Of a stretch of DNA of 61,535 nt, positions 75 to 61,535 are shown one piece after another. The translations under genes and the position numbers were made by a program. The stretch's first letter is position 1, and the number at the start of each line of letters is the position of its first letter. The stretch comes from a virus. The notes beneath the pieces are model-generated. The model saw only the letters and a program-made list of their open reading frames with translations, did no database searches and was not told where the DNA came from. The stretch spans positions 1 to 61,535 of IMG/VR virus record IMGVR_UViG_3300035182_000178; one strand, 5' to 3'.

Positions 75-782
75 ATGAACGACACACTGAAAGAAAAACT
101 ATTGGATATTGCGGTCGCGCACGGACACATACACAAGCGCACGAAGACCTCAACCTCTGGTACAAGCCTGACAATCTTACGTGACTGGTTTGCAGAGACG
201 GATAACCCTGAAGTAAAAGGCCGACATATGGCTGACTGCCGATGTGCTTGCGGTAACGAGCTGACCTTACCCTGGAACCAAGTCAAAAAGAAAATAATCA
301 CACACTGTGGATGCCTGAAGAAACCAACGAAGGACAGAGTGCTTGCGAAGTACAAAGAAACTCGTGTAGTCGCCCCCAAAGGACACAGGGACTGGACGCG
401 AGCGGGTGTTGATGCTGACGGAGTATTTGGCCTAATGCGTTTTGTTGGATGGGAACGGAGAGCGGACCCCACGTACAGACCAAAACCTGTTCCCAAGGAT
501 CAGCGCAAGCGTAGCGGTGAAAGACGTGGTGTTGAGGGGACGCGGGTGTTTTGGAAGATGGTTTGTGCTTGTGGGAAGGTTGTGTGGGTGCAGAGTATTG
601 ACGTGAACAGGCGCGTGCCGCTGACTTGCGGGGGATCGTTCTGCACGCGCTTCTTAGCGAGTGGGTATAGTCGCAGGCAGGCTATGAAGCACTTCACTAA
701 GATGAGGAACAGGGACAAGGAAATCGTGGAGTCGTTCGATCACGTGACCGAAAACAAAGTTGATGGTGGATATCGCTTGTAA
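75..782 (+). CDS. Zinc-knuckle protein with two CxCG/CGC-type motifs, function unknown
   Basis: 235 residues, first gene of the plus-strand block. It has two related metal-binding signatures: C55-x-C57-x-C59-G with C78-G-C80, and C164-x-C166-G with C185 and C190. The first half resembles the CxCG...SCGC knuckle found in phage AP2/HNH-type DNA-binding proteins, but I see neither an AP2 nor an HNH domain. The protein is basic, which fits nucleic-acid binding (inference). The ribosome-binding site is weak. If the molecule is circular, this gene lies directly downstream of the AT-rich control element near 61.4 kb and would be an early gene. The specific role is unknown. Confidence 0.75.
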   Translation: MNDTLKEKLLDIAVAHGHIHKRTKTSTSGTSLTILRDWFAETDNPEVKGRHMADCRCACGNELTLPWNQVKKKIITHCGCLKKPTKDRVLAKYKETRVVAPKGHRDWTRAGVDADGVFGLMRFVGWERRADPTYRPKPVPKDQRKRSGERRGVEGTRVFWKMVCACGKVVWVQSIDVNRRVPLTCGGSFCTRFLASGYSRRQAMKHFTKMRNRDKEIVESFDHVTENKVDGGYRL

Positions 783-867: not shown

Positions 868-1836
868 ATGGCACACGAAATCCACCGCGACGCCTCTGGC
901 AAGGCACACTTCGCTTATGTAGGCTCAACCCCTTGGCACGGACTCGGGCAACTGCTGACGCCCGACGCGTCACTCGCTGTCTGGACCCAAGAAGCGGGTT
1001 TCAACTGGCAAATCGAACGCGGCGATGTGATGACCGAACTGGCCGACGGATCCAAGATCGTTATGCCCGAACGTAACCTCCTGTATCGCTCTGATACGAA
1101 GGTTCCGCTGGCAGTTGTTGGTTCCAAGTACAAGATCGTACAACCGACCGAAATCCTGCACTTCTACGAAGACTTGATCGGTGCCGCTGGCTTTACGCTC
1201 GAGACTGCGGGTATGCTGTTCGGTGGTCGGCGTTTCTTCGCAATGGCGCGCACCAACTACTCCGACGAAGTGCTGGCAGGGGACAAGGTTGATCAGTTCC
1301 TGCTCCTGACTACCGCGTGCGACGGCTCTCTGGCCACGACTGCTAAGTTCACGAGCGTTCGTGTCGTGTGTAACAACACCCTGACGATGAGCCTGCATCA
1401 CGACAGCAAGCAGAACACGGTCAAGGTGCCTCACTCCGCTTCGTTTGATCCCAAGAAGGTCAAGGAGACACTGGGCATCGCTGGTGAGACCTTTGATAAC
1501 TTCCTGGTTGACATGCGCAAGCTGGCTGAAACGCCGATGTCCAAGAACGAGGCGATCAACTTCCTGATCGAACTGGTTGGCGATCCGATGGAATCTCTGG
1601 AAGACCAGACTCCGGGCGCGGCCAATCTCATGACTCACTTGTTTAATTTGTGGAATACGGACAGTATCGGCAACGAACTGGCGGGACATACTCATTGGGG
1701 CATGCTGAACGCTGTTACGGAATTCTACGACCATCACACGGGCCACAAAACCCGCGACGCTGCCCTGAACAATACGTGGTTCGGCGAGGGCGAAAAGCTG
1801 AAGCTCCAAGCCTACGACATGCTCGTTGCGGATTAA
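868..1836 (+). CDS. DUF932 family phage/plasmid-like protein
   Basis: 322 residues. The N-terminus, with its PWHGLG motif and the region up to about residue 110, and the overall length match the DUF932 family (phage/plasmid-like protein TIGR03299), common in phages and plasmids and of unproven biochemical function. The start is fixed by a strong AGGAG leader. The gene has its own promoter-like sequence upstream and an intrinsic terminator downstream, so it is probably a separate, highly expressed transcription unit. Its codon use looks more G+C-rich and regular than that of the small genes around it. Confidence 0.85.
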   Translation: MAHEIHRDASGKAHFAYVGSTPWHGLGQLLTPDASLAVWTQEAGFNWQIERGDVMTELADGSKIVMPERNLLYRSDTKVPLAVVGSKYKIVQPTEILHFYEDLIGAAGFTLETAGMLFGGRRFFAMARTNYSDEVLAGDKVDQFLLLTTACDGSLATTAKFTSVRVVCNNTLTMSLHHDSKQNTVKVPHSASFDPKKVKETLGIAGETFDNFLVDMRKLAETPMSKNEAINFLIELVGDPMESLEDQTPGAANLMTHLFNLWNTDSIGNELAGHTHWGMLNAVTEFYDHHTGHKTRDAALNNTWFGEGEKLKLQAYDMLVAD

Positions 1837-6560: not shown

Positions 6561-6577
6561 TCTGCACCGCCCAAAAC

Positions 6578-8044: not shown

Positions 8045-8951
8045 TGTAGATCTCCAGGAGTGTGGACTTAAGTTCTGCGACATAGTCTGTCGTCCACAGG
8101 TTACGTTGCTCGTTTCGCATAGCTAGTAGATCGGTGCTGCGATACATATGCTCAAGATCAGCAGCGTTTTCTACTTGCCACTTTTCAGGAACAATAATGT
8201 TGGCTTCGCGCAGCATCTTCACCGACCGTATGTCAAAGAAGATCGGGACACCGGCTGACAGCATTTCATAGAAACGATTGGCTGGCGAATGAAACTCACG
8301 ATGCGAGCGCTCGTCTTCTATGTAGAGCGCAGCATCAAAGCGACATGCTTCCTTGATCACGTTTTCAAACGGCTTGATGAACTTAACGTTCGCACCTATC
8401 GCCTCAAACTTCTTGCGACGAAGCGTCGTGGTGCTGACGGTGATCGGGCAGGTGCCTGTGAAGAACCGCTTGAACGACTCTTGTCGCTTTTCACGGAAGG
8501 CGCCGTAGTAAAGGACACAGTTGTTGCTGAGCATCCTGAACGGATGTGGGTCATAAGTCAGTTGGTTCCAGTTGATGTACCTATCGTCTTCAGTTATGAC
8601 GTTATTACGACATGTGGTCCAGAACACAGGGCGCAGCTTAAGTTCAGCGAAGACCTTACGGAACGGTGATTCGGCGTTACTATTGGCTGACGGCGGCATG
8701 ATCGTATAGTCTTGCTGCACCCAGACTACTTGCTTGCTTCGCCGGACAAGGGTAGCAAGCTCCGGCAGGAAGTCACAAAAGGCCATAGGTCCGTTGACGA
8801 TGATCAATTTTTCAATCGGACCTTTGTCCTTTGCTCGTTCTTTGGTGTCAATGAGACTGAGACCAAGTGTATCGCAAATGAACCGGGCGACACGCGCACT
8901 GGCGATTGTACTGTTCGGCTTACATTCTGTCATATGTACGACGCAGTTCAT
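8034..8951 (-). CDS. Glycosyltransferase-like protein (GT-B C-terminal signature)
   Basis: 305 residues. The segment SPANRFYEMLSAGVPIFFD near residue 225 matches the nucleotide-sugar-binding signature of GT-B glycosyltransferases (xNKxyExLaaGvPvi), including the catalytic-pocket Glu. The N-terminal half looks like a degenerate Rossmann domain. Its start overlaps the preceding stop (ATGA) and its end overlaps the radical SAM gene. Pairing with radical SAM, ThyA and hypermodification genes suggests it may glycosylate a modified base, but a surface or nucleotide sugar substrate is equally possible. Confidence 0.6.
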   Translation of the reverse strand: MNCVVHMTECKPNSTIASARVARFICDTLGLSLIDTKERAKDKGPIEKLIIVNGPMAFCDFLPELATLVRRSKQVVWVQQDYTIMPPSANSNAESPFRKVFAELKLRPVFWTTCRNNVITEDDRYINWNQLTYDPHPFRMLSNNCVLYYGAFREKRQESFKRFFTGTCPITVSTTTLRRKKFEAIGANVKFIKPFENVIKEACRFDAALYIEDERSHREFHSPANRFYEMLSAGVPIFFDIRSVKMLREANIIVPEKWQVENAADLEHMYRSTDLLAMRNEQRNLWTTDYVAELKSTLLEIYNEL

Positions 8952-9314: not shown

Positions 9315-9668
9315 CTACTCGTCGCAAGCGCCCTTTACCCATCTATATTCGTAACCGCGCTTTCGGTTATAGACCTTTGCGCCATCACGATTCTGCTTCT
9401 CAATAAAACCCATTTTCTCGAGCTTCCGGAGAAAGGGAGTAGATACAGTCGACGCATAGCCGAGACGCTGCTCAATCTGCGCTTGCGTTGACCATGTTTC
9501 AGAAAAAATAACTTTTGAATACCGATCGATAGCTTCTTGGGTATGCTGTTCGCGACCCTTCTGCGCAATCGCTTTCCAGCGTTCGAGTTTGGCATCGTCC
9601 GTACCCTTGTTGCGGTTGAAATGACTGGCAGCTTTACCTGCCGCCTCAATCTGAGCTACGAGACTCAT
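9315..9668 (-). CDS. Putative winged-helix DNA-binding protein
   Basis: 117 residues. The region around 58-95 (WSTQAQIEQRLGYASTVSTP then LRKLEKMGFI) reads like a winged helix-turn-helix: helix, turn, recognition helix and wing. The C-terminus (RKRGYEYRWVK) is basic. It is coupled to the dCTP deaminase gene (ATGA overlap at 9665-9668). It may be a transcription regulator; specific target unknown. Confidence 0.5.
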   Translation of the reverse strand: MSLVAQIEAAGKAASHFNRNKGTDDAKLERWKAIAQKGREQHTQEAIDRYSKVIFSETWSTQAQIEQRLGYASTVSTPFLRKLEKMGFIEKQNRDGAKVYNRKRGYEYRWVKGACDE

Positions 9669-10219
9669 TTTTCTTTCACCTGCTGAGTCGCATGATCGCC
9701 GTTATAGCGACCACGAACAGCGTAAGACTTGTCTTCCGGCACTGGCTCTGAACGCCAGAAGATCATCTGACCGATACGAACATTGTGGTGGAGACGAATC
9801 GTGTGCCAGTTGCAGAAGTTGGTTAGTTCTAGCGTTAGAACACTGTCGTGCCAGCGTGGATCGCACCAAGTAGCCAGCGAATTTTCCAAGCCAACGCGAG
9901 CGCCAGAGCTATTGAGCTTGAACTCACAGCTGATGTCGTTCGGCAAGAAGAACTTCTCGGTCGTCGAAGCAAGGATAAACGCCTTAGGCCGTAGGTCAAA
10001 GTAACTGTTCGTGATGTCGACTTCTTGCATGAACAATTGTTCTTTGTCGCGCAAAGAAATGGTTGGGTTACTTTCCGGGTAGCATTCGAACTGCACCTTC
10101 TGACCTAGGTGAACGTCAATAGACGTGCCGTTGATGTCCTTAGGGTCTACCCCGGTAATGTAACCACGTTCAACAAACTCGCATAATTCGTTATAGCTTA
10201 TTAGACTTTTTTGCTTCAT
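9665..10219 (-). CDS. dcd: dCTP deaminase
   Basis: 184 residues, dUTPase/dCTP-deaminase fold. Motifs: GTSIDVHLG near residue 31, ILASTTEKFFLP, NSSGARVGLE (nucleotide-binding SS-AR-GL motif) and DPRW...LTLELTN containing the catalytic Glu. It converts dCTP to dUTP (some members go on to dUMP), feeding dUMP to the ThyA-family enzyme encoded in the same operon. Start 10219 is supported by AGGAGAAGGA; the upstream in-frame codon at 10261 lies within the previous gene. In hmdU phages such an enzyme supplies the uracil pool. Confidence 0.8.
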   Translation of the reverse strand: MKQKSLISYNELCEFVERGYITGVDPKDINGTSIDVHLGQKVQFECYPESNPTISLRDKEQLFMQEVDITNSYFDLRPKAFILASTTEKFFLPNDISCEFKLNSSGARVGLENSLATWCDPRWHDSVLTLELTNFCNWHTIRLHHNVRIGQMIFWRSEPVPEDKSYAVRGRYNGDHATQQVKEK

Positions 10220-10376
10220 CTTCCTTCTCCTTCTGTGGTTGCAGTTGTTCGTGTTCGACACAAGTGTCAGTCGCTTTGGTCTTCTTGCCGAAGATGCGCT
10301 CGTAGCTGTCGCGTCCTTTTTCAGACAAGATCCCTTTGGTTCTGATCTTGTCCCCTGTTATGTCATTTCTGCTCAT
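10191..10376 (-). CDS. Small charged hypothetical protein
   Basis: 61 residues with a GAGGAAC ribosome site. The very basic/acidic C-terminus (KEKEDEAKKSNK) is probably disordered. It overlaps both neighbours, the 165-residue gene by 4 nt and dcd by 29 nt. Not recognised. Confidence 0.55.
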   Translation of the reverse strand: MSRNDITGDKIRTKGILSEKGRDSYERIFGKKTKATDTCVEHEQLQPQKEKEDEAKKSNKL

Positions 10377-11187: not shown

Positions 11188-13076
11188 TTGGCACCGCGAC
11201 CATCAGACACCAAAACAGGAACTACCAGCTTGTAGGCAGAAGTCATGATGTGTTTCATGTGCAAAGCTGCTTCCTCGTGACGCGGATTACCTGTCTCTAT
11301 ACTCATGCCTAACTCGTCATACACCGTGTTATGGTACATACCAAGAACGTCGGTGACTCCGTCTTGTACGCCCATAACCATCGCTTTCTTGATCCAATCA
11401 GCATTAGCCCCCTGCATGATAGCGTTCGCGGCTTTGTGCGTATGTGCGCGTTTGACCGCACCCCATGCCCTAATGGCAGCTTCTTTGTCTCTGGTGGGTT
11501 TCCATTTGTCTGGGTCTTTGGCTCGCTCTTCGGGACTAACCCACTTCGCACACTCCCAGGACTCAAATCTACGGCGGCGACCCCCTATGGTCATCACCCA
11601 ACCACGCGCCTGAGCGCGTTCCATGGCCTTATTGGACATTGCTTTTACGAACGGAGCGCGTTCATGATACTGGTTAAGAATCACCAAAGATTCTTTCTTG
11701 CTCAGCCCCAAAGACGAGGCCAATTTCTCTACGCCCATCCCGTACGCAAGACCAAAGTTAATGTTCTTCGCTTGCTTCCGGGTAAGCCCGGTGAGCTGAG
11801 CACACATTTCGTGGAAATCTGTTGCTGGATCTTCTTGGTACATTCGGAGCGCTGCTTCCACACCGCTGCGAGGAATTGTACTCGCAAAATGTACCATGAG
11901 GCGATATTCCATTTGGCTAAGGTCATAGCGAAGCCATTCGCACCCAACTTCAGGAAGGAACATCCCACGACACTTTTGAGAAAAATACGGATCTTTCTCT
12001 GGATTCGGAATGTTCGCAAGATTGGGGTGCGCGGTTGAAGTGCGACCTGTAACAGTTCCATATTCGTCTCCTTTGAGTTGATTGAAAATCGCATGAACAC
12101 GTCCGTTGACGTGCGAATTAAGGATATATCCTTGAATAAACGTATTTAGGAAATGTCGGTACTTCTTTGCATCCCTGATTGCACCAAGGAACGGTACTTG
12201 GTCTTCAAGTGTTGCGAGGACTTTACTGTTGAGTTTGGGATTACCGATTATAATGCCCTTCTTGAGCATCGCTGACGTCGGGGGATGGCGAGGATACGAC
12301 ACACCGAGCTTGTCAAGCTCTGCGGCAATCTGAGTAGAAGAACCAGCGTTAATTCCCGCGAATGACTTTTCCAGTTCTCGAAGTTTCTCGGCCCACTCAG
12401 CTTGAAGTGTTTCGGCATATTGAACATCGACGCGTACTCCTGTTAGATGCATACGAACAAGGATGGGGAGCAGGGCACATTCTACTTTCCAAATGTCTAG
12501 CAGACCTTGTTCTTCAAGAAGCGGTAACTGCTTGTCAAGTATTCGTATAGGTAAGTCGACGTCGCCTTTGGCGTAAGGTTCGACGATGTGAGCCGGACAT
12601 TTCCAGATGAATTTCTTTTCATGACCCGGCTTCGCTTTGAAGTGCTGACGGATATAGGTCAGCATTTCGTCTTCTACTTTACCTTCGCCGAGGTATTCTT
12701 GAGCCAGTGTTTCGAGTGCGTAACTGAACCTCTCTTCGTCGATAAGAGGTTCCGCAACTTGGATGTCGAAGAACGGGCCTTCCACTTGCACACCTTCAGA
12801 CCATAGGAACATAAGGTCGTATGCAAGGTTGGCACCACATTTAGGTATAGGTGTGGAGAGTTGTTCACTGAGCCAGCGTAGAACGGTATTCCTGTCAAGG
12901 TTTCCGCCTCCTTCATGGCGGATAGGAAAGTACCAGCGAGCTGTGCGCGTCCCGATAGCGACACCGGCAATATACCCGTCACGAACTGCTCCCGGCCCTT
13001 TTTCCTTGAGGTCAGGGTCGTAGGTTTCACAGTCAATGGAGATAATGTCTGCATTTTGTAGGTTTGGAAACATCAT
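11169..13076 (-). CDS. polA: Family A DNA polymerase with 3'-5' exonuclease domain
   Basis: 635 residues. The exonuclease domain shows D15-x-E17 (IDCETYD), N83-x3-D87 and D172 (YAKGD). Polymerase motif A is D385 in YDLSQMEYR, motif B is K434QAKNINFGLAYG446, and motif C is VYDE with D587. There is no 5'-nuclease domain, as usual in phages. Length and architecture fit the replicative polymerases of T7-like and related phages. It probably works with the AEP primase and helicases of the same operon. Adjacent ATGs at 13076 and 13073 are both possible starts. Confidence 0.93.
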   Translation of the reverse strand: MMFPNLQNADIISIDCETYDPDLKEKGPGAVRDGYIAGVAIGTRTARWYFPIRHEGGGNLDRNTVLRWLSEQLSTPIPKCGANLAYDLMFLWSEGVQVEGPFFDIQVAEPLIDEERFSYALETLAQEYLGEGKVEDEMLTYIRQHFKAKPGHEKKFIWKCPAHIVEPYAKGDVDLPIRILDKQLPLLEEQGLLDIWKVECALLPILVRMHLTGVRVDVQYAETLQAEWAEKLRELEKSFAGINAGSSTQIAAELDKLGVSYPRHPPTSAMLKKGIIIGNPKLNSKVLATLEDQVPFLGAIRDAKKYRHFLNTFIQGYILNSHVNGRVHAIFNQLKGDEYGTVTGRTSTAHPNLANIPNPEKDPYFSQKCRGMFLPEVGCEWLRYDLSQMEYRLMVHFASTIPRSGVEAALRMYQEDPATDFHEMCAQLTGLTRKQAKNINFGLAYGMGVEKLASSLGLSKKESLVILNQYHERAPFVKAMSNKAMERAQARGWVMTIGGRRRRFESWECAKWVSPEERAKDPDKWKPTRDKEAAIRAWGAVKRAHTHKAANAIMQGANADWIKKAMVMGVQDGVTDVLGMYHNTVYDELGMSIETGNPRHEEAALHMKHIMTSAYKLVVPVLVSDGRGANWGLAG

Positions 13077-13230: not shown

Positions 13231-13620
13231 TTACTTTTCAATCTTCTTACATTCTATGAAGACACGAAGACCTTCGGTGGCGGCGATCAGTTGGGAGACA
13301 CTTTTCCAGTGCATAATGCAGTCGATCAAGTAAATCTCTTCTTGAGGAAGACTGTTACTTACACAGAACCTCTGGAAAAGTGTTTCGTTCTTACGCGCCC
13401 CGCGAATGATTCCAGTGTAGCTGTGGATACATTCCAGGCGCTTAACAACGTACGAAAGCGCCTTTTCAAGATCAATGACACCGTTTTTCTTCCGCCAACG
13501 AGTGATATATTTCGTCGCCGCGTATTCCAGATTGGGTACATTGACTTCTACGCAGTAGTCCCAGTGTTGGTAGTCTGCCTTGTAATGCGTCCCCGCGACC
13601 TGTTTGCTGTCACTTATCAT
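13231..13620 (-). CDS. DUF3310 family protein (T7 gp1.7-like putative nucleotide kinase)
   Basis: 129 residues. The first 60 match DUF3310: GTHYK near residue 11, an HWDY segment, then ATKYITRWRKKNG...DLEKALSYV. The T7 member, gp1.7, is a nucleotide kinase acting on dTMP and dGMP. Placement between polA and the HD/ThyA genes suggests a deoxynucleotide-kinase role, possibly on a modified dUMP (inference). It overlaps the HD gene by 11 nt. Confidence 0.7.
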   Translation of the reverse strand: MISDSKQVAGTHYKADYQHWDYCVEVNVPNLEYAATKYITRWRKKNGVIDLEKALSYVVKRLECIHSYTGIIRGARKNETLFQRFCVSNSLPQEEIYLIDCIMHWKSVSQLIAATEGLRVFIECKKIEK

Positions 13621-14128
13621 ATGTGCTTTCTACGCTACGAAGAGATGAGACGACTGAATCCAGAAGTATCTTGGCTTTCGCTGGTAATTCCGACAGTTCG
13701 AATGAATCAAAGAACTGAACACCGTTTCGAAGAGGTTCGATGGCGTTCTTGTTGCCCATGTTGATTTCGTCAATACAGAACTGGCACAGTTCCATCATGT
13801 CAGCGAACTTCAGCTCCCGGGTTTCTTCTGCTGTCAGGTTCTGAGTCAGGTTATAACGCTTGTCAAATTCTGCTTCTTGAAGCGAGAGCTGACGCCGTAA
13901 TTCAGGCGAACGCCACTTCGTTGTGGCCGGGATATCACCTGTTTCCAGTTCGGCGAGATCGTGATAAAGAGCCGCTTTCAGAAGTTCTGGACGCACGTTT
14001 CCTTCGTAGATGTGAAGAAGAATCACAGCCACACCGTAGGAATGCTCGGCGAGACTCTGATCACGAGTAGTGGGTATGGTGTGAAAACGCTTCACACGAC
14101 TTGCAAAACGAAGACTATTGTAGCTCAT
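13610..14128 (-). CDS. HD-domain 5'-deoxynucleotidase (YfbR-like)
   Basis: 172 residues. Metal ligands of the HD superfamily are visible: H29 in AEHS, H56-D57 in LYHD, and a late Asp in FADMMEL. The GDIPATTK motif after HD matches the GDxPxPVK signature of YfbR 5'-deoxynucleotidases, which dephosphorylate dNMPs. With ThyA directly upstream (ATGA overlap at 14125-14128), it may remove a canonical nucleotide such as dTMP so that a modified one is used. That substrate is inferred. Confidence 0.75.
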   Translation of the reverse strand: MSYNSLRFASRVKRFHTIPTTRDQSLAEHSYGVAVILLHIYEGNVRPELLKAALYHDLAELETGDIPATTKWRSPELRRQLSLQEAEFDKRYNLTQNLTAEETRELKFADMMELCQFCIDEINMGNKNAIEPLRNGVQFFDSFELSELPAKAKILLDSVVSSLRSVESTYDK

Positions 14129-15096
14129 TTCTTGTCCTTGTTATAACGACGCTCAAGCCATTCGGTTGTGTACAAGCGCCAGTCGTCGGCACGAATGTTG
14201 TTGACGAAATCAAGACCGTTGCGGTAGTGCTTGTGGGCAATGAAGACTTCCCACATAGGCTTGACTACTTCCACAAAGAACGGGGTATCGAAGGAAACGC
14301 GTTCGTAGTTTTCGAAGAAGTTAATGAGATCAGAATTGAACTTATCGCGTGTAGTTTCCTTGAACAGGGGATAGAATGTCACAGCTCCTTCTCGGTATGG
14401 GTCTGTGATGTGAACATGGTGGTTCTTTACTTTTTCCCATTTATCGTTCAATTCCGTGTAGACATGCATGGAGTCGGTAGTCTGGTGATAGACGCCTACT
14501 TCGCAACCGATACACCCGGCCATGTATTCTTGAAGGATGCTGAACTGAGGCATGTTGGCCCCGGTCATACCCCAGATGAAATCATTACTACGATTGAACA
14601 CGTGGATATTCAAAGCACCATTGCGAATTTTGCAAGCGATCGCGGTGTTACACGGTTGATCTTTACCGGAATACCACATATCGTCCGGTTTACGAATCTG
14701 TAAAACAACGCGACGATCATCTGGATTTTGCTTGAGAATCTCAATCGCTTTCTCAATCTGGTCATTCGGGTGGCGCATACGATGCCCGTAAGCACCGTAG
14801 AAGACATCGCCGTTGTCACTATACTCTTTGAATGTAGAAACAATGTCTGCCAGGAACTCTACATCTTGTTGGCCAGCGAGAATCCACAGTGGTTCGAAGA
14901 AGTGTAAGAACGGGTTGATGTCACGAACTTTGTCAAACAGTACTCGCTCTTGTGGGCGTGTGTATGAGATACTGACGGGGTTCTCGTATTCAATAACAGG
15001 TCCATTACGACTTGCCCGTCGTTCACCACGACAATTCAAGAACAAGATTCCTCTCGGGAATGCATCGTTCACATTTCTGGCTTTGATTGTGTCCAT
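14125..15096 (-). CDS. Thymidylate synthase family enzyme (TS or dUMP hydroxymethylase)
   Basis: 323 residues. ThyA fold: LWILAGQQD near residue 70, GAYGHRMR, DDRRVVLQIRKPDD (phosphate-binding Arg), catalytic C149 in DQPCN, NRSND, and N181 in TGANMPQFS, the Asn that selects uracil over cytosine. This argues against a dCMP hydroxymethylase. Thymidylate synthase and dUMP hydroxymethylase cannot be separated by eye. The residue after the catalytic Cys is Asn, not the His of bacterial ThyA. Start 15096 (not 15144) is chosen because GGAGGAAAG lies just upstream and it gives a TAATG junction with the preceding gene. Confidence 0.85.
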   Translation of the reverse strand: MDTIKARNVNDAFPRGILFLNCRGERRASRNGPVIEYENPVSISYTRPQERVLFDKVRDINPFLHFFEPLWILAGQQDVEFLADIVSTFKEYSDNGDVFYGAYGHRMRHPNDQIEKAIEILKQNPDDRRVVLQIRKPDDMWYSGKDQPCNTAIACKIRNGALNIHVFNRSNDFIWGMTGANMPQFSILQEYMAGCIGCEVGVYHQTTDSMHVYTELNDKWEKVKNHHVHITDPYREGAVTFYPLFKETTRDKFNSDLINFFENYERVSFDTPFFVEVVKPMWEVFIAHKHYRNGLDFVNNIRADDWRLYTTEWLERRYNKDKK

Positions 15097-15278
15097 TAAC
15101 GCTTTCCTCCAGTTTTGTGGTAGTTCTCCCACCACACTTTGCATTTACGATACTGGCTGACTGCTGCTTCCACAGAAACGCACCAACCATTAGGGTCACC
15201 TTTGACACGGAACATTTCTTTACCGGAAATCGCCCCGTGTTTCTTGGCTACAACAATCTTTTCAGCCTCGGCCATCAT
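15096..15278 (-). CDS. Small basic hypothetical protein
   Basis: 60 residues starting at 15278 (GCGGAG site). Trp-rich C-terminal half (WCVS...KVWWENYHK) with a Lys-rich N-terminus. It lies between the hypermodification gene and ThyA and overlaps both, so it could be a small partner of one of them. Not recognised. Confidence 0.55.
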   Translation of the reverse strand: MMAEAEKIVVAKKHGAISGKEMFRVKGDPNGWCVSVEAAVSQYRKCKVWWENYHKTGGKR

Positions 15279-16104
15279 ACTTACTCCGCACCTTACCGCC
15301 ATCATACTTCAAACGCATGTACTTGTCAAACTCACACATACAGTTCTGTATGTCGTGAAGCGCAATGTCTTCTCCAAGGCGGCTATTGACTATTTTCTGT
15401 ATGTCCAGTAGTTCACGCGTCCCCTGCTGTTGTTTAATTGTACCACCCAAGGGGCGTCCGTATAAACGGTTCAAGCCACGAGTAGATCCTGGGCCGAGGG
15501 GTGCGAACGTGTTCCAGTCTGCGGCTGCGATGAGCGGGTGTGTGTACTTCAAATCCGCAATAACTTGACCAGCCATAAACGAAGAGAAGCCCTGAAACTG
15601 CTGAAGATAATTCCAATATTCTTCGAGTGACTGACCGACCACCGGGTTCTTGATCGTACTCAAGAGGGGTTTGAATACGACATCACACACGTAGTCAATC
15701 TTGTCCATAGAAAGACCGCAGGTTGATACCGTATAGGCACCAGTGAAAATCTTGTGCCCACCGACATCGCGACGACATTTCAACTTATCACGAACTTTAT
15801 TGAGGTCCGGTGATTCAGAAAATATTTCGTCTTGTATAGCGTGCAAGGTATCTGGCCAGTTGAAAATACGCGCGACGCACATGGCAAAGGCGAGGTTCTT
15901 GTGCGTGCTGAACATGTTCATCCAGTTTTCTTGGATCCAAATACTGACGCGGTCATCGTTTCGGCGTACGTTACAAAACTTGTAGTCGCGAAGGATCGGG
16001 TCTTTCGTCCAAGGTTTCGGGGAACCGAGTACGTCTTTCTGGATACGAATTGCTTCGCGTTCCGTGATCCAGTGAAGCAACTCAGAAAGGGCAGTTTCCA
16101 CCAT
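15262..16104 (-). CDS. DNA-base hypermodification protein (5-hmdU DNA kinase helical-domain / aGPT-PPlase type)
   Basis: 280 residues. The N-terminal signature EREAIRI...PWTKDPILRDYKFCNV (about residues 15-46) followed by RRNDDRV is characteristic of the helical, DNA-glycosylase-like domain family of phage base-hypermodification proteins (alpha-glutamyl/putrescinyl thymine pyrophosphorylases and the helical domain of 5-hmdU DNA kinases). No P-loop is visible, so it is the helical enzyme alone. Family knowledge: these proteins act on 5-hydroxymethyl-dU in DNA. Start 16104 is set by GGGAG. Neighbouring ThyA, HD and radical SAM genes support the role. Confidence 0.75.
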   Translation of the reverse strand: MVETALSELLHWITEREAIRIQKDVLGSPKPWTKDPILRDYKFCNVRRNDDRVSIWIQENWMNMFSTHKNLAFAMCVARIFNWPDTLHAIQDEIFSESPDLNKVRDKLKCRRDVGGHKIFTGAYTVSTCGLSMDKIDYVCDVVFKPLLSTIKNPVVGQSLEEYWNYLQQFQGFSSFMAGQVIADLKYTHPLIAAADWNTFAPLGPGSTRGLNRLYGRPLGGTIKQQQGTRELLDIQKIVNSRLGEDIALHDIQNCMCEFDKYMRLKYDGGKVRSKYDGRG

Positions 16105-16345
16105 TATATTTCTCCCAGTAAAGTTTCCCGTCAATCGGGTCACGAATATAACGACCTTTTTCGCCACGGTATTCAAAATACGCAGTGGTGAGGCTGTGAG
16201 ACTCGAACTTCAGTCCTGAAAGAAACACTGTCTCACCTTTCCAAGGGCCGTCTGCGCAAATAAAATCTGACTTAATATTGATACCCGTACCTTCCTTGCG
16301 GTAGCACGATGGTGACGTCTTGCTTGCTTCTTGTGACTGCGACAT
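16082..16345 (-). CDS. Small hypothetical protein, start uncertain
   Basis: 87 residues if started at ATG 16345, but that codon lacks a ribosome site and the first 25 codons lie inside the helicase gene. The part that looks conserved begins near 16290 (INIKSDFICADGPWKGE). A GGAAGG sits seven bases before an ATC codon there, so a non-standard start is possible. Beta-rich with YFEYRGEKGRYI; the 3' end overlaps the hypermodification gene. Not recognised. Confidence 0.5.
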   Translation of the reverse strand: MSQSQEASKTSPSCYRKEGTGINIKSDFICADGPWKGETVFLSGLKFESHSLTTAYFEYRGEKGRYIRDPIDGKLYWEKYNGGNCPF

Positions 16346-17798
16346 AGGCGCATCTGTGTTCGGAACATGGGTCACGCTGCATCTCCTCATAAGTTTTTCG
16401 TGACATATCAGACAAAATGATCACGTGGTCGGCTTCACCACCCTTGACACCGTGGATCGTGTTAACGTGAACACGGGCTTCTCCGGAAAGACGCTGTCTG
16501 CGCCTGAGCATACCGATATAAAATTCTCTCTTTTCGAGCGGTATTCCCAGTAGTGCTTTGTGCCACACGGGTTTATCAAGAAGTCCGTAATGATCTCGGA
16601 GAGTTTCCCATGTGAAATACTCGTCGGACTTGTCGATGTCGTTAAGTAAGGATTTCCCTCCACGCTGGAGTATAGTACCAACCCGTAAAAACTCGTAGAC
16701 AAGTTGGGCGGATTCAAGAGGTATGGCCTCACCACGCCTAAGAGATTCCCAGGCACTGATCGCACGAACATGCTCTTGATCGACTGCTCTTGTATCATTT
16801 CGCCCAGTGTAGTTGAATCCTCGTAGCTTGAGAAATTCGTATACTTCCTTCAGCAAATAGACATTGCGAACAAGGATGAGCGTACTTTGCTCAGGGTTAA
16901 TCTTAACTGCATCTAAAGTGCTAACGTAAGCCAGTTTGCCGGGGTGGCCTGCGGGTGTAAAAGGCTTGTCGAAGCGTTGCCTGACGCGGCCTATTAGGCT
17001 CGCGGCCTTATTGTATGCTGCCATAGGCAAGCGGTAACTGTGAGCTAGCACAGTAACTTCCCCGGCAAGGCTAAGGAACGTATTTAAGTCGGCACCAGAC
17101 CACTTGAAAATAGATTGGTCGTCGTCTCCGGCTATAGTGACTTTCTCGCAGTCCTGGAAACAACGTTGCAAAACTTCCCATTGAATACGAGACAAGTCCT
17201 GTGCTTCGTCAATGTACGCATAACGCACACTGATAGGATTACCTGATTCAATGTACCTGTCTAGTAGATCTGTAAAGTCTAGCTTACCGTTCCGTTTTTT
17301 ATATTCCCTGTATGCATTTGAAAATCTTTCTACTTCTGCGAACATTGTGTTGCTGTCTGAGTCTTTCCAGACGTCTCGCAAAGGTTTTCGCATCACCCTC
17401 GCCAAGTTATCTATAAACAGAAACTTGGCTCCTTTGTCTTGATCTGGGAGAACCAAAGCGCCGTCTTCAATGTTGATTGAAGCATTAAGTTCGTAACCCA
17501 GTAAAGCGCCTAGTTCAGCGTAGTTTTCTCTGGACATCAGATCACTACGCTGACAGCTCAGTTGTCTATAACAAAGTGCGTGGATAGTCTGGAAAAACGG
17601 CAGTCGGTCTTTGGTAAAGCCGAAACGCTCACTGACACGCTGTACAGCTTCACCGACGGCTTTCTTTGTAAAACTGACGAGCGCTATTTCGTTAGGTTCG
17701 ACGGAAACCAAATCCTGTTCGATTCTATTCAGAATCTCAGTTGTCTTACCAGTGCCAGGAGGACCTAGTAAGACAAACTGGTTAGACGCTATCTGCAT
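16272..17798 (-). CDS. UvrD/Rep-like SF1 helicase
   Basis: 508 residues. Motif I (Walker A) GPPGTGKTT is at about residues 12-20. Further motifs are SFTKKAV (Ia), IDEAQDLS (II), GDDDQSIFKWSGA (III), a motif V-like VNTIHGVKGGEADHV and VAVTRSK (VI). It is a superfamily 1A 3'-5' DNA helicase, shorter than cellular UvrD (about 720). It probably unwinds the phage replication fork or repairs ends. ATG 17798 is preferred to the TTG at 17801 because GGAGG is seven bases away; it forms a TGATG junction with the primase gene. Confidence 0.9.
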   Translation of the reverse strand: MQIASNQFVLLGPPGTGKTTEILNRIEQDLVSVEPNEIALVSFTKKAVGEAVQRVSERFGFTKDRLPFFQTIHALCYRQLSCQRSDLMSRENYAELGALLGYELNASINIEDGALVLPDQDKGAKFLFIDNLARVMRKPLRDVWKDSDSNTMFAEVERFSNAYREYKKRNGKLDFTDLLDRYIESGNPISVRYAYIDEAQDLSRIQWEVLQRCFQDCEKVTIAGDDDQSIFKWSGADLNTFLSLAGEVTVLAHSYRLPMAAYNKAASLIGRVRQRFDKPFTPAGHPGKLAYVSTLDAVKINPEQSTLILVRNVYLLKEVYEFLKLRGFNYTGRNDTRAVDQEHVRAISAWESLRRGEAIPLESAQLVYEFLRVGTILQRGGKSLLNDIDKSDEYFTWETLRDHYGLLDKPVWHKALLGIPLEKREFYIGMLRRRQRLSGEARVHVNTIHGVKGGEADHVIILSDMSRKTYEEMQRDPCSEHRCAYVAVTRSKQDVTIVLPQGRYGYQY

Positions 17799-20172: not shown

Positions 20173-20246
20173 TGGTGCCTCCGAACGGAATCGAACCGCT
20201 ACCTGATGATTACAAATCAACTGCACGACCTTCATGCTACGGGGGC
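20173..20246 (-). tRNA. tRNA-Thr (anticodon TGT), encoded CCA
   Basis: A complete cloverleaf can be drawn on the minus strand. Acceptor GCCCCCG/CGGAGGC has one C-A mismatch. The D-stem is GCAT/GTGC. The anticodon stem GTTGA/TCATC has one T-T mismatch around loop TTTGTAA (anticodon TGT). The T-arm is AGCGG-TTCGATT-CCGTT, with discriminator A followed by CCA. It lies inside the replication operon, between the ssDNA-binding-like gene and the Cas4-like gene. The two mismatches may mean it is decaying or edited. Confidence 0.85.
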
Positions 20247-23336: not shown

Positions 23337-24824
23337 TTACACAATATTTTGCCCAGAATTACTGAGATCAAGCATAAAGGCACTAAGATCTTTTTTGTTG
23401 CTCAAGGACAAAAGAATTTTCTTGTCGATCGTACTTTCAGCTTCAAGATCGATGTACAAAACCTTGTCCGCTTCTTGACCAATACGATGACAACGATCTT
23501 CGGATTGCCAACGATGACTGGCGCTGAAAGAATTACTGTAGTAAATAGCAGTTGCTGCGCGAGTAAGGTTAAGACCAATACCGCCAGAAGAAGGCGTGCC
23601 AAGGAGATATTTCACCTCGCCGTTACGAAATCTCTGAAGATTTAGCGAGCGTTCGTCTTTACTGACTTCTCCGTAGTACTCGACACAGTCGTCTCCGAAC
23701 ACTTTGCTGAGAATACGAATATCCTCCTGAAAACGACACCAGATAATCACGCTACCTTCTATATCTTCCACAGTTTCAAGAAGAGCCGCTACACGCGGGT
23801 TTTCCTTGGGATCGTGTTTGAATAGGTCGATGAAATTGTTGTCTTGATCAACGAGGTATCCGCAAGTCAATTGTTGTAACCGAAGCATAAGTGTCAGTTT
23901 ATGAAGAACTGGAACACTCACGTCGTTAAGTTCAAACCTACATTCGTCCTCCAACTGATTGTACAGTTTTCGTTGGTAGTCAGAAAGTTTGAAGTAGCGT
24001 TTCTCGTAGATCTTCGGCGGAAGATCCAAACACTCTTCTTTTGTCACGCGCATACTGTAAGGTGCAATTTTAGCTTTCAGTTGGTCCAGGTTACGGTATC
24101 GCTGCGATCCGTCCGGGTTTTTCGCCGCAATTTGTGGAGCGTGACGCAAGTTGTTCTTGCGCATGATCGCTGTGACCATCGGATGGTCTTTGGGCAGCAT
24201 CTCCGCATAATCGGCTTTGAATGCCGGGTAGGAATCGCCAAGGATAGACTCATCTAGGAAAGCGAACTGGGAGAACACATCAAACGGACTATTGACCACA
24301 GCGTCGCCAGCGAGGATACGGCGATACTTCATGAGCGGTTTGAGTTTCATCAAACGTTTCGTTCGCATAGCAGTCGGAGACTTGATTCGCGTAGATTCGT
24401 CAACAACGACCATAGCGTCCGTTGCAAGGAGAAGACGTTTCAGAAATTTCGGAAGTGCGTCGTAGCTCATACCTTCGATGTTCGCACACAAGATACGAAG
24501 ATGCTCCCCTGTATCAAGGAGTTTCTCGCACGCAAGCATGGAATTCTTGTTCCCCGCTTCCCAGACGGCTGCTTTGAATTCGATGTGGTCTGGAAGACTC
24601 AGCGGGAAGTCTTCTTCCAACCACTTTTTATGAACACCGTTCGGTGCTAGGATGACCACACAGTTAATGCGCCCAAGTGAATACAAGTACGCAGCGGTGT
24701 CTACCGTGGGCTTTGACTTACCGGCCCCCATTTCAAACAGGATGGCGAATATTTCTGCTGTCCGAGAAAGCATAAAACATTCGTGCTGGTGTTCGTACGG
24801 TTTAGATTTGTACTGATATTCCAT
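23337..24824 (-). CDS. SNF2-like SF2 DNA helicase/translocase
   Basis: 495 residues. Motif I MGAGKS at 32-37, VVVDES (motif II, DEST variant), then the C-terminal helicase domain with IIWCRFQEDIRIL, GTPSSGGIGLNL and the SNF2 motif VI HRWQSEDRCHRIGQ. This is the first gene of the leftward operon, immediately downstream of the AT-rich control region. Phage members of this family serve in replication initiation, fork remodelling or recombination. The ribosome site is weak. Confidence 0.85.
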   Translation of the reverse strand: MEYQYKSKPYEHQHECFMLSRTAEIFAILFEMGAGKSKPTVDTAAYLYSLGRINCVVILAPNGVHKKWLEEDFPLSLPDHIEFKAAVWEAGNKNSMLACEKLLDTGEHLRILCANIEGMSYDALPKFLKRLLLATDAMVVVDESTRIKSPTAMRTKRLMKLKPLMKYRRILAGDAVVNSPFDVFSQFAFLDESILGDSYPAFKADYAEMLPKDHPMVTAIMRKNNLRHAPQIAAKNPDGSQRYRNLDQLKAKIAPYSMRVTKEECLDLPPKIYEKRYFKLSDYQRKLYNQLEDECRFELNDVSVPVLHKLTLMLRLQQLTCGYLVDQDNNFIDLFKHDPKENPRVAALLETVEDIEGSVIIWCRFQEDIRILSKVFGDDCVEYYGEVSKDERSLNLQRFRNGEVKYLLGTPSSGGIGLNLTRAATAIYYSNSFSASHRWQSEDRCHRIGQEADKVLYIDLEAESTIDKKILLSLSNKKDLSAFMLDLSNSGQNIV

Positions 24825-24969: not shown

Positions 24970-25092
24970 GTAAACGGTATAGCTAGCTAGCCCTAGCAGA
25001 TACCCAGCACCTCTTTTGCCATTACAAAACAGCAACATAGCAGCACTAGCAGCTATATACGCTCGAAAAAACAAAAAAATTTTTTTTATTTT
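24970..25092 (-). promoter_or_regulatory. Duplicated control element, copy 1 (faces the leftward operon)
   Basis: Read on the minus strand: A8-T7-G-T6, then CGAGCGTATATAGCTGC and TAGTGCTGCTATGT, then 28 nt of unrelated sequence, then TGGGTATCTGCT and a GGCTAGC-type box. The same blocks in the same order and with the same 28-nt spacing occur on the plus strand at 61397-61505. TATATA could act as a -10 box, with the A/T tracts as an UP-like or bent-DNA element. Confidence 0.75.
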
Positions 25093-25093
25093 T

Positions 25094-25121
25094 TTGGCTA
25101 GCCGCTATGTGCTAGCCAAAT
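25094..25121. repeat. Inverted repeat TTTGGCTAGC / GCTAGCCAAA
   Basis: Perfect 10-bp arms separated by 8 nt, immediately beside the A/T tract of copy 1. Orientation relative to the T-run does not make a standard terminator for the late operon, so a protein-binding site or cruciform is more likely. Confidence 0.6.
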
Positions 25122-25272
25122 ACACGTAAGCCATGTGGCACAAGCAAACCCAGCTAGCACCTTACCTGCTAGTAGCTGCTAAGCTAGCAGCTAAATAGCA
25201 TATTTTGGCGCGTGCGTGCGTCTTATGAAAGACAATTATTTAATACGCATACACACGTATTTGGTGTTTTTG

Positions 25273-27117
25273 CTATTTACCTGTCCTTGTACGAAGACCA
25301 CGAAGTGTTTCTTCCGCGTCTTGTTGAGGATACTGAAGAACTGACCATGCGGCTCGCCCCGGTACGTTCAGGTTTTTGAGCTGTCCAAGGCCACCGCTTG
25401 AAGGCACTTCTTCGCGCAAAAGATTACGACCCATCATGAAACGCTGAACGGCAGGACTGGTTGTCGCACCTTCAAATCCCGGCATGTGTCCGGCTAAACC
25501 GAACACTATATCTTTAGGGTTTTTGGCGACAATACCTGAAGCAACACGAAGATTACCGACACCGTTGGCAGTCAGATTGTTGCCGGGATTTTTCAGAACA
25601 CGGGACAGTTCAGGAATCAGTTGGAATGTGTTAACCATGTCCTGGCCGTTTTGTGACATATACGGATGCAACCAACTCAGCTCTGTGGGCTTGTTTGCCA
25701 AATCAGAGTAGAATCGGTGAGCTTCCTTATACGCATTGTCCTTAGCACCGTAAGTACCACGATTCGCTTTCATGAACAAATCATTGTTGATTGTACCCGG
25801 TACAACATTCTCACGCCAGAAGTTCTTGGCTTCCGTGACCATTTTCATGGCTGTCGGATTGGTGACGCCCCAGCGATCAACGTCGGCAGATATTGAAGCA
25901 TACATGCTGTCCAGTTCACGAACAGCCATTTTAGCCGCCGCTTTCTGGTCAGAAGATTCTGCTGCTTGGCGAGCAAGTTCTTTCGCACGACCAATGACCG
26001 ATTGCAATTCATGCAAGGATGTAAAGTCTGCGTGACTGATACCCTTAGCGGTCGCCATGTCACGGAAGGCTTTCATCCCCGTACCTGAAGCGTCATCTGC
26101 TTCCTTGATGTAATACAGTGCGTTATTCTGACTAGGTAGCTGCTGTGCAGTTCGACCACGCGGCGCTTGACCGTATTGGTTCAGTATAGTACGTGCAGTG
26201 TTCTGAGAATCTGGAGTCAATACGTTCGGCAAATTGTTGGACGTGATGTAGTCGTCAACACCCTTCCAGAGTTCAGAGCCTTTTCCTTTAAGAGCCTCGC
26301 CAGCACCGACGATTTCTTGGCGAATATTATCACCATGCAGAACACGTGATTCAGGTTGACCGATAACCCCGGTAGGAGCATTCACTGTTCTGTCAGCGGC
26401 GGTCTCAAAAGCCTTCAATTGCTTGGCTGTCATTTTCGGAGTACCGGCGTAACCCGCTTCTATCGTATGGAATACGGAAAGAGGATCAACTGAACCCATT
26501 GTCGGATCAATACCGAGTCGACGAGCAGAATCTGCCAGCGGCATAGTTTCCTTGCCCATGTCGTTATAGCGTCGAAAGACACCACCAGCGGTTTTCCCTG
26601 TGGCGGCGATCGGCAGACCCATTACCCCTGTTGTCACACCACTTTCAAGACCTCTCATACCACGAGTACCGAGCATCACACCATCGATGTCACCTTCTGT
26701 GGGAGACATTGCGGCCTGAAGCCCGGCGGTGCCCATCTGTGCGCCAATGCGAGCAGGGGTTGAAAGTGCCAGCGCAGCGTCAAAACCGAACCCTCCCATG
26801 TTGGCAGGCCAGTTTTTCATCAGACGACTGTCAATAGCACGTTTTTCTTTCTTAGCAGCATTAGAAGCAGCAATCTCTTCCTTGGTGCCAAATGCGCCAA
26901 CGCCGATTTCCTTGAGACCCTGGATTATGTCATCGGCTTTTTTACCGACACCGGCGAGCGCAAGCTGTGGGCCAGACATACCAGCGGTGTAATCTTCGTT
27001 GTCTACAGGGGTATTCTGACGAGCCTTCGCGGCCTTTACCGCAGGCGCAATGACCATCTGACTAAGTTCTTTTTCCAAGTCCTCGTCAGTCATCAGAGAA
27101 TAACGATCATCAGACAT
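25273..27117 (-). CDS. Putative virion/DNA-ejection protein
   Basis: 614 residues, last gene of the late operon. No catalytic motif is recognised. The N-terminal 170 residues are Gly/Ala-rich with amphipathic stretches (e.g. FDAALALSTPARIGAQ), followed by a long helical region. In short-tailed phages the 3' end of the structural operon usually encodes large internal proteins ejected with the DNA; this gene and the next four fit that position and composition. Confidence 0.5.
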   Translation of the reverse strand: MSDDRYSLMTDEDLEKELSQMVIAPAVKAAKARQNTPVDNEDYTAGMSGPQLALAGVGKKADDIIQGLKEIGVGAFGTKEEIAASNAAKKEKRAIDSRLMKNWPANMGGFGFDAALALSTPARIGAQMGTAGLQAAMSPTEGDIDGVMLGTRGMRGLESGVTTGVMGLPIAATGKTAGGVFRRYNDMGKETMPLADSARRLGIDPTMGSVDPLSVFHTIEAGYAGTPKMTAKQLKAFETAADRTVNAPTGVIGQPESRVLHGDNIRQEIVGAGEALKGKGSELWKGVDDYITSNNLPNVLTPDSQNTARTILNQYGQAPRGRTAQQLPSQNNALYYIKEADDASGTGMKAFRDMATAKGISHADFTSLHELQSVIGRAKELARQAAESSDQKAAAKMAVRELDSMYASISADVDRWGVTNPTAMKMVTEAKNFWRENVVPGTINNDLFMKANRGTYGAKDNAYKEAHRFYSDLANKPTELSWLHPYMSQNGQDMVNTFQLIPELSRVLKNPGNNLTANGVGNLRVASGIVAKNPKDIVFGLAGHMPGFEGATTSPAVQRFMMGRNLLREEVPSSGGLGQLKNLNVPGRAAWSVLQYPQQDAEETLRGLRTRTGK

Positions 27118-28706
27118 TACTTGTCCTCCTTGACACCCATGATCTTGTTGTAGGCATCGCGCAAACGAAGCGTTTCGATCTTGCCGTAACGTTCCTTCAT
27201 CTTCAACCAGTCAGAAGACAAGAGGCCATTTTTGTCAGTGTGTTCACTGGCTTTTTGTGCCAGTCGCATATTGGATTGCGCTACAGCGATCATCATCTGC
27301 ATGAGCTTCATGTTGCCTTCACGCGTCCCAGAAAGACCAGGAGCCATTGACTGTAACAACTGGTCTTCGTAGTTGGACATCGCACCCGGTAACAAGTTCT
27401 GACCGTCAGCCGATTTCATACCTAACGCAAGTTTCTTAGCGAGCGCATCAAACACCTGTGTGTCAGGCGTACCTGCATCCACCTCAATTCCCAGAGACTT
27501 AAGACCACTACGGAAATTCTGGATGTGTGGGCCAAGTTCGCCTTCAGGCATTGTCGGATTATTTTCAAGGAGTGCAGTCATGGCAGACAGATTGTTGACC
27601 AGACCAGAATTCTTGGAGAACAGCTCTGACATAGCGACGCGTTCCTTGGAAAGAGCCTTCCCAGCTTCTGGTTTCTGTGCCTCTTGAACTTTGTCCTTAA
27701 AAGGCACACCCGTAGGCGCATTTGCGGGGGCTTGCGGGGCGCTAGGTTTGCCCGGTACGGCCATTTCTGCCTGTGTAGGCGGACTCGCAGTAGGCTGGGT
27801 AGTACCAGTGCCTTGCCCGCTTTGCCCGAGTTGCAAGTTTTGGCGCACAGGATCTATACCGTACGAAGAAATCAGCTCCTGACGAGCCAGTGCCATGTTG
27901 CGCAGACCTTCCTGATACATGCGGCTTTCCGGTTGTCCGCGAGAATTCTCTACTTGTTGCTTCGCTGCGTTGAATTCGTCAAAGACGATTTTTGCCCGAT
28001 CATTGGCCGTCAGTGGCCCCTTTTCGTCTTGCGACACAGGGACAGTGACTCGGTTCGGTTCAAGTTGCGTCTGCGAAAGAGGAGCTTGCGGCTGCATAGA
28101 ACCTTGCGGTGCTTCATTGCCTCGCGGACCAGTGGGTTGCGTGGCGAACTGTTCGATGTAGTTCTTCACGGCGTTATCAGCTTGAGCACGAATCCATGTC
28201 ATACGCTGCTCGCCATCAGGGAAGTCCATTTCCTTGGCAACTTGCGCGGCGCTATTCATCGCACCGTTATAAACAGTCCGAAGCTGTTCCGGAGAAGGCA
28301 TCTTACCAAGAGCTCCGCGACCAAGCAATGACTTGTCGAAGCTATCTGCTTCACGCACAGCATTTTCAGCCATACGTACTTCTTCTTGATCGGCTTTCTG
28401 TGCACGAATCAGCTGTGCGTTCGCCATATCTGTTGTACGCTGACCTTCAGAACCGATGGCCTGAGCAGCGGCATCCCACGAACGCTTACGCGGGTCTGCA
28501 CCATAGCGAACAAGGTAGTCACTAACCATCCGACTAACAGATCCTTGATCAGCTAGAGGAAGGCGCATTGTGTCAAGAGCTTGTGCTTGTGAGTCATCTC
28601 GCCACTCGCGCATGTTCTGACGCTCAGCTGGGTTGTAGTTGTCCTCATTCAACAACTTAGACAACACACCTTGTACAGAATTCGGATCAGGTTGAATACC
28701 AGCCAT
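27117..28706 (-). CDS. Putative virion/DNA-ejection protein
   Basis: 529 residues, Gln/Ala/Pro-rich, with a low-complexity middle (about residues 190-345) between two helical regions. It abuts both neighbours. No enzymatic motif. Assigned as an internal virion protein from position and composition only. Confidence 0.5.
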   Translation of the reverse strand: MAGIQPDPNSVQGVLSKLLNEDNYNPAERQNMREWRDDSQAQALDTMRLPLADQGSVSRMVSDYLVRYGADPRKRSWDAAAQAIGSEGQRTTDMANAQLIRAQKADQEEVRMAENAVREADSFDKSLLGRGALGKMPSPEQLRTVYNGAMNSAAQVAKEMDFPDGEQRMTWIRAQADNAVKNYIEQFATQPTGPRGNEAPQGSMQPQAPLSQTQLEPNRVTVPVSQDEKGPLTANDRAKIVFDEFNAAKQQVENSRGQPESRMYQEGLRNMALARQELISSYGIDPVRQNLQLGQSGQGTGTTQPTASPPTQAEMAVPGKPSAPQAPANAPTGVPFKDKVQEAQKPEAGKALSKERVAMSELFSKNSGLVNNLSAMTALLENNPTMPEGELGPHIQNFRSGLKSLGIEVDAGTPDTQVFDALAKKLALGMKSADGQNLLPGAMSNYEDQLLQSMAPGLSGTREGNMKLMQMMIAVAQSNMRLAQKASEHTDKNGLLSSDWLKMKERYGKIETLRLRDAYNKIMGVKEDK

Positions 28707-49126: not shown

Positions 49127-49134
49127 GCCTCACC

Positions 49135-60682: not shown

Positions 60683-61165
60683 CTAAGGCAGTGGCGTACC
60701 CAGCGCCTGAGCAAGTTTATCACGGGCAGACACCACTTCCACCGGGCCACCGTCCTTGCCGGTGAGTTCTATGCCACTCGTTTCCTTCCACCCAGCCTGC
60801 GACTTGAGCCAGAACTTAGTCATGTCTGGGAATCGGCCCGAGGACGCCATTTCAAGCGCCTTACGGGCGACAACAAGGTTGCTGATCTTACCGGCAACTG
60901 ACAGTTCACGCGAATAGAATTGCTTGAGCAGTTTCTGGTCGATGTTGAGCACGAGGGCTATCTCGTCTGGCTTCAGGCCAAGCGCCGCCATAACACTGAC
61001 TTCACGCGACTGAGCAATAGAGAGGTTAAATCCAGGAGATCCACGCTCAGGTTTCGTGCTGATGCCGATCTCTTTCAGTTGCTGAGCGTACAGATCATCC
61101 AGACGTTTCTTCGTGGCCTCAGGAGAGTCAATCTCCGGCAGATTCAAGTCTTCCCAATTAAACAT
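60683..61165 (-). CDS. terS: Terminase small subunit (TerS) candidate
   Basis: 160 residues from 61165 (TTGGAG site; the in-frame TTG at 61177 is rejected). After an acidic start there is a DNA-binding-like helix-turn-helix, MAALGLKPDEIALVLNIDQ, near residue 65. A helical region follows with ARKALEMASSGRFPDMTKFW and KSQAGWKE, typical of small terminases that recognise the packaging site. Isolated on its own transcription unit beside the large inverted repeat, which may be its target. Confidence 0.75.
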   Translation of the reverse strand: MFNWEDLNLPEIDSPEATKKRLDDLYAQQLKEIGISTKPERGSPGFNLSIAQSREVSVMAALGLKPDEIALVLNIDQKLLKQFYSRELSVAGKISNLVVARKALEMASSGRFPDMTKFWLKSQAGWKETSGIELTGKDGGPVEVVSARDKLAQALGTPLP

Positions 61166-61535
61166 AATCGGCTCCAATCACCAATCAAATCAATATACAC
61201 ATACTACCATTCAACAATCAAAAAAAGCAAGATTCACGCGCACGCGCCAATGAACAGTTATCAAAAAATAGTTTTGAACCTCGTAAAAAAAGACCTGCTA
61301 TTCACTAGCAGCACAATACTATCCAAAATAAACACCAGATACCCTTACACAGCAATAACTTACAGCATAGTTCCCTGTTATAGCAGGTCGCCAATTTTTT
61401 AAAAAAAATTTTTTTTGTTTTTTCGAGCGTATATAGCTGCTAGTGCTGCTATGTAATTGTATCCAAAGGTAAAAAAACCTAATGGGTATCTGCTTGGCTA
61501 GCACTAGTTTGTAGCCACATTGCATAAATTTTTTA
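61166..61535. other. 370-bp AT-rich non-coding right end
   Basis: No supported gene. It holds copy 2 of the duplicated control element on the plus strand, an A8-T8 tract, and on the minus strand a GGGTATCTG box (near 61336) that faces terS. It is likely a divergent control region: plus strand toward the left-end early genes if the ends join, minus strand toward terS. Confidence 0.65.
61397..61505 (+). promoter_or_regulatory. Duplicated control element, copy 2 (faces rightward)
   Basis: A8-T8-G-T6, CGAGCGTATATAGCTGC, TAGTGCTGCTATGT, 28 nt, then TGGGTATCTGCT and GGCTAGC: the same blocks and spacing as copy 1 at 24970-25092, but on the opposite strand. If position 61535 joins position 1, it lies about 130 nt before the first plus-strand gene at 75 and would drive that early block. 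Confidence 0.75.

Follow-up and report, generated by a model that had tools for sequence, protein, structure and literature searches.

Two inverted copies of a non-coding element form a predicted paired binding site, and a candidate replication origin, in an uncultured tailed phage

RESULTS

Two intergenic regions of the phage genome

The window, that is, the whole stretch of DNA analyzed here, comprises the 61,535 bases of one virus record. We drew its gene map by combining open reading frames with the results of family searches and assigned the labels "early" and "late" from gene content. Plus-strand genes run from 75 to ~6,560. They are followed by a leftward block (24,824 to 6,633), whose genes encode a helicase, an exonuclease, a primase, a UvrD-type helicase, and PolA, and by a second leftward block that extends from the gene for the terminase small subunit (TerS; start at 61,165) down to 25,273. 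Region A separates the helicase gene from the end of the late block. Region B is bounded on one side by TerS and, provided that the contig ends join, on the other by the plus-strand block. Each holds one copy of the element described below (Table 1). The contig ends 41 nt beyond copy B. The earlier proposal that this copy faces the early block depends on joining the ends; in two related contigs, G4 and L015, the sequence is contiguous at that place.

Several other features were seen on the map. Genes at 7094-8083, 9665-10261, 13610-15144, and 15262-16176 (radical SAM/SPASM, dCTP-deaminase-like, YfbR-like HD, and relatives of thymidylate synthase and 5-hmdU DNA kinase) form a set suggesting hypermodified thymine DNA. 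A tRNA-Thr (TGT) gene sits inside the replication block (20173-20246, minus strand), and an array upstream of the large terminase gene (59436-59628) repeats an 8-bp unit (CGTTGCCC/CGTTGTCC) 24 times. GC-rich palindromes, nearly perfect and bordered by runs of A and of T, resemble two-way terminators; they lie at 6575-6602 (in the gap where the early and replication blocks converge), 60460-60485, and 60641-60665.

Table 1. Positions of the two element copies, additional words, and adjoining genes in the window
Feature	Position	Strand	Remarks
Copy A, whole element (A/T tract, core, filler, TGGGTATCTGCT)	24995..25095	-	Sequence and self-comparison
Copy A, A/T tract	25095-25066 in reading direction	-	Joint least stable 30-bp stretch (start 25066)
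Copy A, core CGAGCGTATATAGCTGCTAGTGCTGCTATGT	25065-25035 in reading direction	-	31 nt; two CTGCTA words 9 bp apart
Copy A, filler	25034-25007	-	28 nt
Copy A, TGGGTATCTGCT	25006-24995	-	Sequence
Copy B, whole element	61393..61494	+	Sequence and self-comparison
Copy B, A/T tract	61393-61423	+	Joint least stable 30-bp stretch of window
Copy B, core	61424-61454	+	31 nt; identical to copy A core
Copy B, filler	61455-61482	+	28 nt
Copy B, TGGGTATCTGCT	61483-61494	+	Sequence
More STGYTA words, region A, outside part common with B	25109, 25155, 25166, 25176, 25185 (25109..25190)		Word count
More STGYTA words, region B, TerS side	61295, 61306, 61375, 61381 (61295..61386)		Word count
phrog_62 DNA helicase, first gene of leftward replication operon	23337..24824	-	Downstream of copy A
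TerS, start of leftward late operon	60683..61165	-	Adjoins copy B
First gene of plus-strand early block	75..782	+	HNH-type PHROG match (47 residues); follows copy B if ends join
DUF932 early gene	868..1836	+	Relatives in G2, G4, L066, G8

The two copies share order, core, and an unstable tract

The original prediction described an A/T tract and conserved blocks shared, in the same order, by two intergenic regions, and both copies bear this out: each reads A/T tract, 31-nt core, 28-nt filler, TGGGTATCTGCT. The copies are inverted, lie 36 kb apart, and are 82% alike over 102 nt (E value of 2e-21 by BLAST against the whole window); over the A/T tract and core, the likeness rises to 98% of 55 columns. 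With A/T runs masked, the A-B comparison scored 90, while the best other 500-bp segment scored 28 against A (n = 239) and 28 against B (n = 238). Self-search of the window returned only these two copies and not the dispersed copies of a stoperator-like repeat. Neither copy had a match in Rfam, and a distant blastn search with region A against named phages gave none.

A gap of 28 nt with differing letters had also been claimed. The length is indeed the same in both copies, but the fillers are partly alike (13 of 28 positions by hand count) and so are diverged yet related; the equal spacing is in part expected, since these are two homologous copies without indels. Recent gene conversion alone would not account for an identical core next to fillers of such limited likeness.

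When all 30-bp stretches of the 61.5-kb window were ranked by nearest-neighbor sums, the A/T tracts of copies A (25066) and B (61393) came out as the two least stable. This counts as a single observation, since the tracts belong to a common element, and A/T-rich composition is common in non-coding DNA generally. Composition skew showed no strand-bias switch at A, and strand bias was uninformative for origins.

Related genomes keep the arrangement while its sequence changes

Counterparts of copy B were found in G4 (27 kb) and L015, where the element is kept at the copy-B place, upstream of early genes. The exact G4 core occurs only in these two contigs, and the exact window core had no match in viral contigs. 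The filler is 40 nt in both, not 28, so conservation of the element in relatives holds up and conservation of its exact spacing, as a general rule, does not.

A more distant relative, G2 (69 kb; PolA, 61%; TerL, 66%; helicase, 56%), has its own A-B match. Its score of 39 exceeded the maximum of 36 in 3,000 shuffles and the 27 to 28 of the best of 269 other segments, although a whole-genome self-search at an E value of 0.01 did not recover the pair. The matching stretches of G2 run in the same direction along the genome, and the part of region A that matches B points at the helicase gene in G2, as it does in the window. In G8 (44 kb; TerL, 46%; helicase, 38%), a 165-nt element occurs twice in direct orientation, with copies 73% alike. 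The DUF932 gene lies downstream of the first copy (11757-11920), and a small TerS-like gene before TerL, named by eye and position, lies downstream of the second (27871-28033). A separate G8 leader with a TAGAAT-like -10 (by eye) lies at 11929-12054 and again at 25657-25774, the latter without the 165-nt element; promoter and element thus look like separate modules in this genome. Three further contigs, L066, L068, and L079, each have a B region bearing other repeats.

We compared eight regions from six contigs pairwise, with region A taken from the window and G2 only and G8 left out. Among the 28 pairs, those standing out were window A-window B (z = 28.9), G2 A-G2 B (z = 6.0), window A-G4 B (z = 4.5), and window B-G4 B (z = 3.3). 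No equally clear non-coding pair appeared among the matches listed for MW202545, RLK (first 22 of 44), and DSL-LC04 (first 49 of 61.5 kb), nor did self-comparison of G7 and G9 give such a pair among the matches listed (at most 12 per contig). A helicase-alignment scan matched only G2 and one distant locus, one scan of genome contigs yielded no relative, and the last viral scan returned 73 loci, of which L079 was the only one read in detail as a new relative. Two contigs matching the G2 core pattern, L072 and L073, were rejected: comparison with the window open reading frames gave one match in L072 and none in L073, and no similar repeats were seen by eye around the match.

Other repeats were noted in these contigs. 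G4 has a 15-bp repeat array at 16400-16803. In G2 (L057-L060), a repeat that bears a palindrome and is like GTTGGTACCAGCATACCAAC is present four times, near 2805, 5048, 24010, and 61139; region A is close to one of these copies, and another directly follows the TerS gene. In MW202545 (L050/L051), palindromes like TACTAGTCTGACTAGTA are dispersed at 10176-10219, 27577, 43552, and 49116-49167, and some of them are paired. The ends of G9 (L150/L153; 65 kb) are identical over 127 bp (1-127 and 65215-65341), so this contig probably represents a whole genome, either circular or permuted.

Instability of the DNA was also found at the corresponding places of several relatives. The least stable 30-mer lies within the B region in G4, L079, and L066, and the B region of L068 ranks second at 30 bp and first at 100 bp. 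In G2, region A ranks sixth and region B falls outside the first eight. For G8, the 30-mer of lowest stability is at 27961, inside the second 165-nt copy; the one at 12034, inside the first leader copy, follows, tied with 10758.

Short words cluster in both regions

Regions A and B of the window contained 15 STGYTA words against 1.22 expected from the rest of the genome (98 in total); the corresponding counts were 11 against 1.12 in G2 (89 in total) and 9 against 0.71 in G4 (37 in total). These counts are descriptive, because the word was itself derived partly from these regions. In a per-region test, AGCTGCTA occurred 13 times in window region A at ≤1 mismatch (shuffle maximum, 7), above all 60 shuffles; G4 B also exceeded all 60, through an A-rich word, and window B (P = 0.13), G2 A, G2 B, L068 B, and L066 B did not exceed theirs. 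A first motif search returned A/T runs alone and was discarded. Rerun on six regions without A/T-rich k-mers and without L066 B, the search found TAGCTGCTA-like words with scores of 111 against 44 to 68 and 118 against 55 to 79 at two widths, beating 10 of 10 shuffles at each.

The clustered words show partial dyad symmetry (TAGCWGCTA), and CTGCTA and related words are in some cases spaced 9 to 11 bp apart. Tandem spacing stood above shuffles in the B regions of L068 (10 bp), L066 (12 bp), and L079 (11 bp) (0 of 300 each) and in G2 B (9 bp; P = 0.01); G4 B also reached a P value of 0.01, but via an 8-bp repeat outside the common element. The tandem scores of window A (P = 0.22), window B (P = 0.49), and G2 A (P = 0.83) did not exceed shuffles. 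DnaA boxes (TTWTNCACA) were absent from A and B of the window. In the 12-kb contig L066, all three matches to this box (3144, 3447, and 3459) fall inside its 650-bp B region, between TerS and early genes.

Candidate proteins

A 117-amino-acid protein encoded at 9315-9668 (minus strand) is a candidate DNA-binding protein with a winged-helix-like C-terminal part. It gave weak MarR and replication-initiator matches, its structural model is of low confidence (mean pLDDT of 56), and the Foldseek E value was at best 7e-3. A relative is present in G4; none was detected in G2. The protein is only a candidate for the trans-acting factor of A and B. A search for the DnaB helicase family (PF03796) matched 0 of 3 records (G000, G002, and G004) and 14 of 14 controls.

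DISCUSSION

The sequence comparisons very probably identify A and B as a paired binding site for one common factor. Word clustering, the match of copies within a genome, their divergence between genomes, and retention in relatives all support the predicted protein-binding array at two operon starts. Because the copies agree within genomes and differ between genomes, a common, changing DNA-binding protein is suggested. We infer that one protein would bind both copies, that the phage would encode it, and that replication would be the outcome.

Control of early genes had been the original reading of the element; unstable DNA beside repeated words points at least equally to a replication origin. 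We tentatively favor paired origins in the style of SPP1 oriL/oriR, a role to which we give slightly less than an even chance, and the evidence for origin and for operator is nearly balanced. The element would be a cis-acting assembly site in which CTGCTA-type words lie beside an A/T tract of the lowest stability in the genome: a phage-encoded sequence-specific protein would load onto the repeats, the A/T tract would melt, and replication would start, while the other copy may act later in replication or in the stalling of forks. We lean toward an origin because of the unstable tract with its repeats, the DnaA boxes of L066, and the lack of a promoter in the element. In SPP1, oriL and oriR are reported to consist of direct repeats and an AT-rich unwinding element and to be bound by gp38; SPP1 also has gp39 and a DnaB-type gp40, and oriL lies inside gene 38 (PMC6316719). 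The window phage likewise has two copies per genome, with repeated words beside an AT-rich unstable stretch, and SPP1 too has one copy in a non-coding region (PMC6316719). Two similarly organized copies (pairs are also seen in G2 and G8) and an AT-rich element unstable by sequence are thus present. Unlike SPP1, the window phage yielded no gp38/gp39/gp40 set. Several findings count against the origin reading: no replication initiator was identified, the DnaB helicase family gave no match in G000, G002, and G004, no strand-bias switch was seen at A, DnaA boxes are absent from A and B of the window, the tandem scores of window A, window B, and G2 A stay within those of shuffles, the G2 regions rank low for instability, and both copies stand at operon starts, where operators would be expected.

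Nearly as likely is a pair of operator or activator arrays through which one phage regulator would switch the replication and early operons, and perhaps the TerS/late operon, together. The position of the copies at the starts of transcription units and the direction of copy A lean this way. So do the partly dyadic clustered words, the within-genome agreement set against between-genome divergence, the placement of the G8 copies before the DUF932 and TerS-like genes, and the presence of an encoded winged-helix-like candidate. The corresponding arrays of phage lambda, OL and OR, are two inverted sets of related short sites that face two early operons, overlap promoters, and serve lysogeny. Copies A and B resemble them in number, inversion, and facing of two early operons; unlike them, the window element showed no promoter overlap, and no integrase or resolvase match was found in G000, G002, and G004. 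Further points against operators are that no sigma-70-like promoter rises above chance in the element, that the G8 leader recurs without the 165-nt element, and that the distance from the words to a possible -10 differs between the window copies (by eye). In Cluster O mycobacteriophages, 17-bp repeats are reported in >30 dispersed copies (PMC4351075). Those repeats and the Cluster A stoperators (PMC4351075) share with the present words a short length, repetition, partial dyad symmetry, and a presumed part in regulation; unlike the Cluster O repeats, the words of the window form two dense arrays.

RNA polymerase had also been named as a possible ligand, which would make the element an early promoter with the A/T tract as an UP element. 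The upstream tract, similarly oriented to the operon starts in both window copies, fits such a promoter, which we nevertheless consider improbable: scans of both regions with a simple sigma-70 consensus gave one site per region, as many as chance predicts, and both sites lie outside the element and are not directed at the early genes; by eye, the conserved core lacks a good -35/-10 pair. The RNA_pol family search was uninformative, since 0 controls matched. It is more doubtful still that the copies are an inversion site or, near TerS, a pac or cos site. Inverted repeats 36 kb apart and the adjacency of copy B to TerS would suit recombination or packaging, but copy A is far from the terminase genes, the G8 pair is direct, and no tyrosine or serine recombinase family matched in G000, G002, and G004 (PF00589 and PF00239, 0 of 3 records each, with controls matched), so that the integrase of a temperate phage was not seen in these records. 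That the pair is a functionless recent duplication or an assembly artefact is hardly credible. The contig does end shortly after copy B, yet the core has been kept while the filler diverged, the B-type element and the early side lie on unbroken sequence in G4 and L015, and G2 and G8 have independent pairs.

Origin and operator might also be combined. Although we regard it as rather unlikely, one phage protein could read both copies and so couple the start of replication to a change of gene program, in DNA whose thymines may be hypermodified. Under such a combination, the spelling would shift quickly between relatives while the architecture of two copies and an unstable tract would be kept. The element resembles known phage paired elements, and we place it in neither the SPP1-type nor the lambda-type family.

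With paired origins still the preferred reading, A and B offer a sequence-defined candidate for a replication origin or master switch in a group of uncultured tailed phages of ~60 kb. Agreement within genomes and divergence between them provide a natural series for pairing a DNA-binding protein with its changing site. Other phage contigs might be screened for control elements in the same way, by looking for non-coding repeats of two copies that coincide with the least stable stretch.
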